Shown piece by piece: positions 48,829 through 59,959 of a DNA stretch of 64,000 nucleotides. The notes under the pieces were generated by a model. It saw nothing but the letters and a program-made list of their open reading frames with translations. It did not search any database and was not told the DNA's origin. The DNA is from a bacterium (GTDB lineage Bacteria; Bacillota_I; Bacilli_A; Izemoplasmatales; UBA1188): positions 62,001 to 126,000 of the forward strand of contig JAFXYB010000022.1 in the NCBI GenBank assembly GCA_017541975.1, read 5' to 3'. Each line of letters begins with the position of its first letter. Within the stretch, counting starts at the first letter, position 1. The translations under genes were made by a program, and so were the position numbers.

Positions 48829-49911
48829 TTAATTATGGGATAAGCCATAATTTAAAATGTTTAATGCTGCATTATAGTCTCTATCTATAATTAACTTGCA
48901 GTGAGGGCATCTATAGGTTTCACTTTTACCTACCCTGTAGGTTTTGCCGCAGTGACTGCAGGTTTGACTAGATGGGTAATACCTTTCTATCTTCTTTAAT
49001 TCTTTCCCATAGCGCTCACATTTATACTTAAGTAAAGTCGTTATTTGGCCTAAGGAGGATAGAAGCATTTCTCTTTTATGGATTTTTAGCTTTTGTTTTG
49101 ATAATAAATCTTTAATATCTAAATCCTCCATGTAGATAGTATCATATTTTTCAACTATGGCTTTCGTCGCTTTATGAATGGTATCTAACATGTAATGATC
49201 CTTATATTGATATACCTTAGCTAATTTTCTTCTCTGCTTATTCCAGTTATTTGAATGTAAGGTGCGCTTAGATAATCTCTTTTGTTCTTTTCTTATTTTT
49301 TTATTCAATCTATCGATATCTAAATCAGAAATATATTTATCATTATCACTTGTTGTAATTAGCTTTCTTATTCCAAGATCAATCCCAACACTATTGCCTG
49401 TCTTTAATAGTGTTTTTTCTTCACATTCATAAATTATAGATGCTTCATAGATTCCACTTTTTAATAATTTTACTGTAACATTTATTATTTTATTATCTTT
49501 TATATCTTTACCATATTTACATTTAATAATACCCAATTTAGGAAGTTTTATTCCTTTTTCATATAGTACAATATTGTTGTTTGTATAATTTGTTCTATAG
49601 GATTGGGCATTATGTTTTTTCTTAAATACTGGTTCATTAGCTCTTTTAGAAAAGAAATTCTCATATGCTCTATTTAAATTCTTTAAAGAATTTTGTAATG
49701 CGAATTTGTCTGCCTCTTTTAAGAATATTGTATCATCACTATTCTTAAGAGTTGTTAACATTTTGCTCCAATTAGTGTATTTATAGTCTTTACTATTTTT
49801 TGAATAGTCTAAAAAATAGTTATACACAAATCTTGTATGACCGAAGATAATATTTAAAGTATTAATTTGTTTATTATTTGGATATAATCTTATCCTTAAT
49901 CCTTTTTTCAT
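48829..49911 (-). CDS. tnpB: TnpB RNA-guided nuclease (IS605 OrfB)
   Basis: 360 residues from ATG 49911 (behind GGTGAGG; the upstream GTG 49920 is part of that site). The RuvC-like catalytic residues are present in order: Asp in VGIDLGIRKL, Glu in IYMEDLDIKDL, and Asp in IDRDYNAALNIL. The zinc finger CSHCGKTYRVGKSETYRCPHC precedes the last motif. Nothing is missing, so a functional RNA-guided endonuclease is expected. Start overlaps the end of tnpA by 38 bp. Confidence 0.95.
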   Translation of the reverse strand: MKKGLRIRLYPNNKQINTLNIIFGHTRFVYNYFLDYSKNSKDYKYTNWSKMLTTLKNSDDTIFLKEADKFALQNSLKNLNRAYENFFSKRANEPVFKKKHNAQSYRTNYTNNNIVLYEKGIKLPKLGIIKCKYGKDIKDNKIINVTVKLLKSGIYEASIIYECEEKTLLKTGNSVGIDLGIRKLITTSDNDKYISDLDIDRLNKKIRKEQKRLSKRTLHSNNWNKQRRKLAKVYQYKDHYMLDTIHKATKAIVEKYDTIYMEDLDIKDLLSKQKLKIHKREMLLSSLGQITTLLKYKCERYGKELKKIERYYPSSQTCSHCGKTYRVGKSETYRCPHCKLIIDRDYNAALNILNYGLSHN

Positions 49912-50305
49912 CTTCCTCACCTTGATTTTGTATATATTTCTTTATATTATCCATTACATTATCACTAGTAGTAGCTATATAGTAAGAAGGACTCCATATA
50001 TGTCCTCCATATAGCACCTTAGATAATTTATCCTTATGCTTACTATTTAACAATCTTGCAGATACTCCCTTTAGTGTTTTGATCACTACAGGAATAGAAT
50101 CCTGTGGAGATAATCCTAATAACATATGAACATGGTCTTTATCTGTATTAATTTCAACAAGGTCATAATTATTGTTTTTACAGATATTAGTAATAATATC
50201 GATAAAATCATCTTTGACATCGTCTACTAAAATTTCATGTCTATATTTAACACACCAAACAATATGATAATATAGATCATATACATATCCTCTACCATGT
50301 TTCAT
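49874..50305 (-). CDS. tnpA: IS200/IS605-type Y1 transposase TnpA
   Basis: 143 residues from ATG 50305 (AGAGAGGTAC upstream). The HUH motif DHVHMLLG and the single catalytic Tyr in NIKKYIQNQ are intact. This enzyme cuts single-stranded ends during DNA replication-linked transposition. A longer reading upstream to 50413 passes through the promoter and is rejected. A TATAAT box lies about 30 bp upstream of the start on the minus strand. Confidence 0.95.
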   Translation of the reverse strand: MKHGRGYVYDLYYHIVWCVKYRHEILVDDVKDDFIDIITNICKNNNYDLVEINTDKDHVHMLLGLSPQDSIPVVIKTLKGVSARLLNSKHKDKLSKVLYGGHIWSPSYYIATTSDNVMDNIKKYIQNQGEEDEKRIKDKIISK

Positions 50306-50346
50306 AATGTTAGTACCTCTCTCTATATATATTATACCATATTTTA

Positions 50347-50418
50347 TGACATATGCATAGAAAAATAGAAATTTTATATACAAAGTATATAATTTTATAA
50401 AAAAGGCTGACATATGCA
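50347..50418. repeat. Repeated TGACATATGCA flanking a hairpin upstream of tnpA
   Basis: The 11-mer TGACATATGCA is found at 50347-50357 and 50408-50418. Between them is a hairpin (TATATAC AAA GTATATA, about 50375-50391). The position, next to tnpA, suggests a part of the left end. Confidence 0.45.
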
Positions 50419-50500: not shown

Positions 50501-50554
50501 GATTTATCAATTATTATAAAAATATTCTAAAATTGTATTTATTTATTTTACAAG

Positions 50555-50584
50555 TTGATATACAATATAATAGATATATATAAT
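50555..50584 (+). promoter_or_regulatory. Promoter of M18-HTH gene
   Basis: TTGATA (50555-50560) and TATAAT (50579-50584), 18 bp apart; the ribosome site AAGGAG lies at 50588-50593. Confidence 0.65.
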
Positions 50585-50598
50585 ACAAGGAGAAGCAT

Positions 50599-52062
50599 AT
50601 GGAAAAATTAAAACAATATCGTACGAAACTAAACTTAACACAGAAAGAAGTTGCAGAGAAACTCGATATCTCTCAACAAGCTTATGCATTATATGAAAAT
50701 AGTGATCGAACTCCATCAGATGAAATGCTTGAAAAGCTTGCGGCAATCTTTAATATTACAAAAAGTGAACTTGAGTCTAAAGCAACAGAAATGGAATATA
50801 GACATATTGAATCAATAGAAGATTTCCTCTTAACATCTTATACTTCATATCATTCAACAAGAAATATTGAATCAATTCTAAAAGAAGATGGTTTTGAAAG
50901 ATTATATGATTATAATGAATGGAATCTTAAAAAGGGTGGAAAATATTATATTTTAAAGAATCAAAGTGCAGTTATCGCTTTTAAAATAGGAAATTTATCA
51001 AATTATGCCTTTAATATAGCTGGTTGTCACACCGATTCACCATGCTTAAAGGTTAAGGGCAATACATTAATTGACAGCAGTGAAGGCAAGAAGATAAACG
51101 TTGAAGTTTATGGCGGATTAATCCTATATTCTATGCTGGATATTCCTCTAAAGATTGCGGGTAGAATCATTGTAAATGAGGATAATAAATTAGTCACAAA
51201 AATAGTATCAAGTGATTTTAATGTTAATATTCCAAGCCTTTGTATTCATCATAATAGTACTGTTAATGATAGTTTAACATTAAATAAACAAGTTGATATG
51301 TTACCACTACTTGGTTCAAATACCGATGTATATTCGCTTCTTTCAAACGGAAAGGAAGTAATAGATGCTGATCTATATGTTGTACCAGATGTAAAACCAT
51401 ATCTTAGTGGAGTAAATAAAGATTTATTAGTATCACCAAGACTTGATAATCTTACAAGTGCTTATGCAATCGCAAAAGCTATTATAGAATCTAATCCAAA
51501 AGGTATTGCGATTGGATATTTTAGCGATAATGAAGAGATTGGCAGTGGTACTAAACAAGGTGCAAGTTCAATGTTCCTCCCTGATACACTAGAAAAGATC
51601 AATAGATCTTTAGGCTTTTCTAAAGATGATTATAATAAAGCTATCGCAAATGGTTTTGCATTATCTATAGATAATGGCCATGCCGTTCACCAAGCGCATC
51701 CAGAAAAGAGTGATATATCAGAAAAAGTATATATGAATAAGGGTATAGTTATTAAGCACCATACCAATTATTCAACCGATGGACTTTCATCTTCAATAAT
51801 CAAAACGATTGCTAAAACGAATAAAATTTCTTATCAAGATTACTATAACAGATCTGACCAAAGATGTGGTGGCACAATCGGTTTAATCACTAGTTCACAA
51901 CTAGAAATGAATGCTTGTGATATCGGTCTAGCACAGCTTGCGATGCACTCAGCAATTGAAACAATAGGATATAACGATATAAAACTAATGATGGAACTTG
52001 TAAAATCATATTTTAATACTAGTATTAGTACACTTGATAACTACGAAATCAAATTAGATTAA
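50599..52062 (+). CDS. M18 family aminopeptidase with N-terminal Cro/CI helix-turn-helix
   Basis: 487 residues. Residues 1-65 form a complete Cro/CI-type HTH (YRTKLNLTQKEVAEKLDISQ, then YENSDRTPSDEMLEKLAAIFNITKSEL). From about 72 the M18 aminopeptidase begins. The metal-site set expected for the family is present: His144 (GCHTDSP), Asp283 (PRLDNLT), Glu312-Glu313 (DNEEIGS), Asp358 (SIDNGHAVH) and His450 (QLAMHS). M18 enzymes are cobalt/zinc aminopeptidases, usually 420-470 residues with no HTH, so the fusion is unusual. All catalytic residues are retained. It has a single-gene promoter; the next gene has its own. Confidence 0.95.
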   Translation: MEKLKQYRTKLNLTQKEVAEKLDISQQAYALYENSDRTPSDEMLEKLAAIFNITKSELESKATEMEYRHIESIEDFLLTSYTSYHSTRNIESILKEDGFERLYDYNEWNLKKGGKYYILKNQSAVIAFKIGNLSNYAFNIAGCHTDSPCLKVKGNTLIDSSEGKKINVEVYGGLILYSMLDIPLKIAGRIIVNEDNKLVTKIVSSDFNVNIPSLCIHHNSTVNDSLTLNKQVDMLPLLGSNTDVYSLLSNGKEVIDADLYVVPDVKPYLSGVNKDLLVSPRLDNLTSAYAIAKAIIESNPKGIAIGYFSDNEEIGSGTKQGASSMFLPDTLEKINRSLGFSKDDYNKAIANGFALSIDNGHAVHQAHPEKSDISEKVYMNKGIVIKHHTNYSTDGLSSSIIKTIAKTNKISYQDYYNRSDQRCGGTIGLITSSQLEMNACDIGLAQLAMHSAIETIGYNDIKLMMELVKSYFNTSISTLDNYEIKLD

Positions 52063-54886: not shown

Positions 54887-54979
54887 ATAAAGCAAATACT
54901 CGTGACATTTTGCTCGATAACAATTTTCAAAAATGCGATAGACACAGTCTATTTTATTTAATATGTTTTGGAGGTAAAA

Positions 54980-59959
<4,980 letters not shown>

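Follow-up and report, generated by a model that had tools for sequence, protein, structure and literature searches.

Several enzymes carry a DNA-binding domain on the same chain as the catalytic domain. In BirA, PutA, and NadR an HTH or RHH domain is joined to an enzyme; these proteins show autogenous control, and their sensing of a ligand is established, PutA and BirA being fused enzymes that are able to sense their substrates. Cro/CI-type HTH domains are also found ahead of other domains, as in the XRE-cupin, XRE-NUDIX, and HTH-M78 (ImmA/IrrE) proteins. In the first of these the added domain is a sensor fold, and in the last it is an endopeptidase; none of the three carries an M18 domain. 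An aminopeptidase can also act on transcription without a fused HTH. E. coli PepA, an oligomeric enzyme of the M17 family, represses carAB, and its catalytic activity is not needed for this role (PMC6245113). PepA contacts DNA with its own N-terminal domain and with grooves on its surface, and wraps about 230 bp. Members of the M18 family are self-compartmentalised exopeptidases, which act on unfolded peptides and whose active sites open onto an inner chamber (PMC3472314). The ApeB-type M18 enzymes of known structure, from Pseudomonas (3wt4/2ijz) and human (DNPEP, 4dyo), are without a DNA-binding domain.

The window, the 64,000-nucleotide stretch of DNA that was analysed, contains a gene that places a Cro/CI-type HTH in front of an ApeB-type M18 aminopeptidase. 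An uninterrupted open reading frame (ORF), which starts with ATG and runs from 50599 to 52062 on the + strand, encodes a protein of 487 aa. A good ribosome-binding site (RBS), AAGGAG at 50587-50592, serves the ATG ahead of the HTH; no Shine-Dalgarno sequence is seen when the sequence 5' of the internal Met65 is searched. In Pfam, HTH_3 matches residues 4-58 (E 9.6e-17; score 61 bits, cut-off 23) and Peptidase_M18 (PF02127) covers most of the remaining protein (E 9.1e-89); Pfam finds no M17 domain. The NCBIfam model NF002759 (M18 family aminopeptidase, ApeB-type) matches residues 66-474 with 407 bits, the cut-off being 356. Thus, given a single ORF, both Pfam domains, and an RBS at the start of the HTH, the HTH-M18 fusion described in the initial annotation is real. 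The protein therefore resembles BirA, PutA, and NadR in having a DNA-binding and an enzyme domain on a single chain, although the enzymes are different ones and ligand sensing is established for them and not for the window protein. Compared with the ApeB-type enzymes of known structure, it has about 70 additional N-terminal residues that include the HTH.

AlphaFold, run on three sequences, gives a five-helix fold for residues 1-60 (helices 2-10, 15-21, 26-34, 41-50, and 55-59; block pLDDT 72-87), while its M18 half is unreliable (mean pLDDT 41.7). From Pfam, the orthologue alignment, and AlphaFold, the HTH occupies residues 1-58 (50599-50772, +), with the recognition helix at about residues 26-34. 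A variable linker follows (residues 59-71; 50773-50811, +), and structure alignment and NCBIfam place the aminopeptidase domain at residues 72-474 (50812-52020, +). The HTH is therefore intact, as initially proposed, but the extent first given to it, residues 1-65, is slightly long, reaching into the poorly conserved linker. A second M18 gene in the window's own genome (G000:C13) is HTH-less and of the other type.

The aminopeptidase half has the whole catalytic domain of the ApeB type, and its intact catalytic residues predict an active enzyme. In an alignment to the Pseudomonas and human structures, H144, D283, E313, D358, and H450 correspond to the H.D.E.D.H set of M18 metal ligands, as assigned in the human DNPEP paper (PMC3472314), and E312 corresponds to the catalytic Glu. 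The initial annotation had named exactly these residues, all of them correctly, and they are invariant in those HTH_3 orthologues whose sequence spans them. The residues of the acidic P1 pocket, H361, K386, and Y391, are also present. K386 aligns with K384 of 4dyo, which, with a 10-residue offset in numbering, is Lys374 of DNPEP, a residue proposed to mark acidic specificity (PMC3472314). Because the pocket residues agree with that description, the enzyme is predicted to prefer N-terminal Asp/Glu, probably. In addition, H217, the swapped-loop His that crosses into the neighbouring subunit, is conserved; since it is, an array of HTHs on an M18 dodecamer is plausible.

The distribution of the fusion was examined in roughly 770 genomes, all inside the class, through surveys of the class, of a distant family other than the window's (f9), and of the order to which f9 belongs. 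HTH_3-M18 is present in six genomes of two families: four of the seven in the window's genus and two in f9. Within the genus, the orthologues are full length in G005 (L004, a yak-rumen genome bin; 75% identity) and G002 (L008; 63%), and split over two contig pieces in G004. The f9 orthologues share 58% (G585, L117) and 54% (G567, L118; truncated by a contig end) identity with the window protein. The gene is absent from three congeners, including one whose genome is 97% complete, and thus is dispensable. No other HTH_3-prefixed ApeB-type M18 is found among the matches listed for the class, f9, and its order, and the 54 other ApeB-type M18 genes that were inspected closely start at the enzyme, without an HTH. 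In a tree of the M18 domain alone, all of the HTH_3 proteins fall into a single clade (SH-aLRT 97); the only unlabelled row in this clade, L010, comes from the C-terminal part of the G004 fusion. G585 and G567 nest inside the clade of the genus proteins despite belonging to another family; because of this grouping, transfer of HTH_3-M18 between the two families, both gut lineages, is likely. No paper describing an HTH-M18 fusion was found in a literature search whose coverage leaves out most subscription journals.

Several long M18 frames were considered as possible further fusions and rejected. Those in G319, G348, G254, G156, and G691 have an open frame upstream or an ordinary leader, with no recognisable HTH, and the "long frames" of G122 and G111 are runs of masked N. 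The G711 gene, which aligns from residue 1, has intervening stops and no HTH.

Upstream of the window gene, a candidate operator, TTGTAT-N21-ATACAA (50533-50565), overlaps the -35 element of a sigma-70-like promoter, TTGATA-N18-TATAAT (50555-50584, +), which is assigned by its match to consensus only (11/12). The 6-bp arms of the candidate operator are invariant in G000, G005, and G004, and the 21 bp in between are variable. For this motif, which was noticed before it was tested and for which three of the four instances are homologous promoters, shuffling of alignment columns yields a conserved three-way inverted repeat in 3 of 5,000 trials (P about 0.0006). A third, weak ATACAA half-site at 50583-50588 adjoins the RBS, being part of the RBS region; it is also present in G005 and G004, and TTGTAT occupies the same place in G002. 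The G002 gene lies at an unrelated locus, beside the genes for ribosomal protein S4 and a pseudouridine synthase. Here the 75 bp upstream contain three TTGTATA/TATACAA half-sites (0/20,000 shuffles), and TTGTATAA-N9-TTATACAA straddles the -35 element. The spacing of the half-sites is unequal, 21 bp versus 9 or 13. The pattern is absent upstream of the HTH-less M18 genes (0/54), and no matching motif is seen ahead of the HTH_3-M18 genes in the two f9 genomes (G585 and G567). A search near the gene for a named RNA element also found none.

The reading that we favour, with somewhat better than even confidence, is that of a bifunctional trigger enzyme, an acidic aminopeptidase that is also an autorepressor with a built-in HTH. 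The N-terminal HTH would bind to the TTGTAT/ATACAA half-sites over the -35 element, and this binding would repress the protein's own promoter; the amount of aminopeptidase, presumably as a dodecamer, would thereby set its own expression. The proposed autogenous control is like that of BirA, PutA, and NadR, and the proposed protein is like PepA in being an oligomeric aminopeptidase with a role, in PepA a demonstrated one (PMC6245113), in repressing transcription. In the seven congeners, the operator pattern occurs genome-wide at a level near that of a reversed-pattern control, and most other copies are intragenic. A wider regulon was therefore rejected, and control would be local. Repression of its own gene was one of the roles suggested in the initial annotation. 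It is supported indirectly by the candidate operator over the promoter, which is conserved in the genus, and by the parallel boxes of the HTH_17-M18 genes described below, while the lack of the motif at the f9 HTH_3-M18 promoters, the unequal spacing of the half-sites, the faster evolution of the HTH, and the absence of the gene from three congeners speak against it. Taken as a whole, the initial interpretation is partly supported.

The same type of enzyme is also found with a second DNA-binding prefix. A search for long M18 frames brought up an M18 in G390 that begins with an HTH_17 (excisionase/MerR-like) domain. HTH_17-M18 is also present in G639, G653, G606, and G614, at 60-64% identity, and in G746 and G747, for a total of seven genomes in three genera. 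In the M18 tree these proteins cluster apart from the HTH_3 clade, alongside two HTH-less rows. Because the HTH_3- and HTH_17-M18 proteins form separate clades and their HTH families are unrelated, the tree and the domain assignments indicate that ApeB-type M18 has gained two unrelated DNA-binding domains independently, at the same (N-terminal) end. Thus, the HTH_17-M18 proteins of f9 are like the window protein in enzyme type, in the end that carries the DNA-binding domain, and in having a box at their own promoter, but differ from it in HTH family, M18 clade, and the box itself, TTGCCGATA.

In family f9, the HTH_17-type prefix is also seen on enzymes that are unrelated to M18. These are AdhE-like aldehyde/alcohol dehydrogenases of about 928 aa (L115, L120, and L173), TrpB-like PLP enzymes (L162, L171, L172, L174, and L175), Fic proteins (L114 and L167), and an HI0933-like flavoprotein (L163/L121). 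For AdhE, Fic, and the TrpB-like protein of G390, where the Pfam match is below the cut-off or unreported, the domain is assigned by sequence similarity to the others. Separately, the window's own genome encodes an HTH_3-NUDIX fusion of 227 aa (L129:1477-2157, G000:C13:12239 region; HTH_3 50 bits, NUDIX 71 bits).

The box TTGCCGATA, which was spotted by inspection and tested afterwards, occurs as an exact match within 110 bp of the start in 10 of 13 HTH_17-prefixed genes (M18 5/7, AdhE 3/3, Fic 1/2, and flavoprotein 1/1), and near-matches are present in most of the remainder. The TrpB-like genes (n=5) do not have this box; instead they have TATACCGA in common, and their HTH has a different recognition region. 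None of the 54 promoters of HTH-less M18 genes, 15 of which are in f9, contains TTGCCGATA. Since the box is found with differing HTH_17 enzymes and is absent from HTH-less M18 genes, it tracks the DNA-binding prefix rather than the enzyme. Genome-wide there are 2-22 copies per genome, and in G639 and G390 17 of the 18 other copies lie inside long ORFs. Part of this sharing could come from common descent of a promoter-plus-HTH cassette; judged by eye, conservation at the HTH_17 promoters is limited to the boxes and does not extend to the surrounding DNA.

The surroundings of the HTH_3-M18 gene vary. An IS200/IS605 element (48829-50413; TnpA and TnpB genes, - strand) lies just upstream of the HTH-M18 promoter in the window, where it separates an acetyltransferase gene from the promoter; it is absent from this place in G005 and G004. 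An RluD-like gene is downstream of HTH-M18 in G000, G005, and G004, and the neighbourhood in G002 is different. Further along the window, 54968-59959 encodes a protein of 1663 aa; it resembles a GH3 beta-glucosidase that has gained further domains, and it ends in a collagen-like Gly-X-Y stretch and then a membrane anchor.

A peptide-sensing regulator, in which the binding or turnover of a peptide in the M18 chamber alters DNA binding by the HTH and so controls the protein's own gene and perhaps further genes involved in using peptides, is an unlikely alternative. The two halves have been kept together with all of the catalytic and acidic-pocket residues, and PutA and BirA provide the precedent for substrate sensing by a fused enzyme. 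However, there is no regulon, the operator being at chance level outside the protein's own promoter, and at the loci compared no conserved partner gene for peptide transport or a peptidase is seen near HTH-M18. Furthermore, PepA can repress without catalysis (PMC6245113), and in M18 enzymes the active sites face the inner chamber (PMC3472314), whereas the N-terminal HTH is presumably on the outside.

Rather improbable is the idea that the HTH has lost its DNA binding and now serves as a prefix for oligomerisation, solubility, or targeting. Eukaryotic M18 enzymes can bear N-terminal extensions that have roles other than DNA binding, and the HTH of the fusion does evolve faster than the enzyme: its dN within the genus is 1.5 to 2.5 times that of the enzyme, and dN/dS (NG86; rough values, with dS high) is about 0.3-0.55 for the HTH and about 0.1-0.25 for the enzyme among the genus orthologues. 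Relative to the window protein, identity in the orthologues is 40-66% in the HTH, 12-38% in the linker, and 61-80% in the enzyme. Together, these values indicate that both halves are retained, the HTH under weaker constraint. Yet S25, Q26, and Q27, at the start of the recognition helix, are invariant in all six orthologues, as is Y29. In addition, two unrelated DNA-binding folds have been picked independently, and the promoter boxes go with the type of HTH. All of this argues against a loss of DNA binding.

That an HTH gene and an M18 gene were joined neutrally or by accident is very improbable. The fusion is rare, with six HTH_3-M18 genomes among the roughly 770, but it is intact in 6/6, which span two families and diverge by about 40% in amino-acid sequence, and its HTH is under purifying selection. 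Moreover, all six orthologues begin with the HTH rather than near residue 66, the key residues of the HTH are conserved, and its identity exceeds that of the linker; on these comparisons, the first two of which the initial annotation had proposed, the fusion is not accidental. Least probable is a switch like that of ImmA/IrrE (M78), in which the protease would destroy a repressor: the order of a Cro/CI HTH and then a metallopeptidase is superficially the same, but there is no Peptidase_M78 match in Pfam, no adjacent gene for a partner repressor, and no mobile-element setting save the nearby IS200/IS605, and M18 is a self-compartmentalised exopeptidase for unfolded peptides (PMC3472314).

For the bifunctional trigger enzyme, then, the weight of the finding lies more in the two separate acquisitions and in the promoter boxes than in the single protein. 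Enzymes that regulate genes are already known, mostly as single curiosities; here one type of aminopeptidase is found with two unrelated DNA-binding domains. It is conceivable, though a little short of an even chance, that small-genome gut bacteria repeatedly use HTH prefixing as a modular means of autogenous control, with the promoter/operator and HTH moving as a cassette, so that M18 (twice), AdhE, TrpB-like, Fic, flavoprotein, and NUDIX enzymes would each repress themselves without a separate regulator gene. Confirmation would give a simple design rule by which enzyme expression limits itself in reduced genomes, and with the HTH-M18 particle one could test directly whether an oligomeric peptidase can couple its substrate load to transcription.
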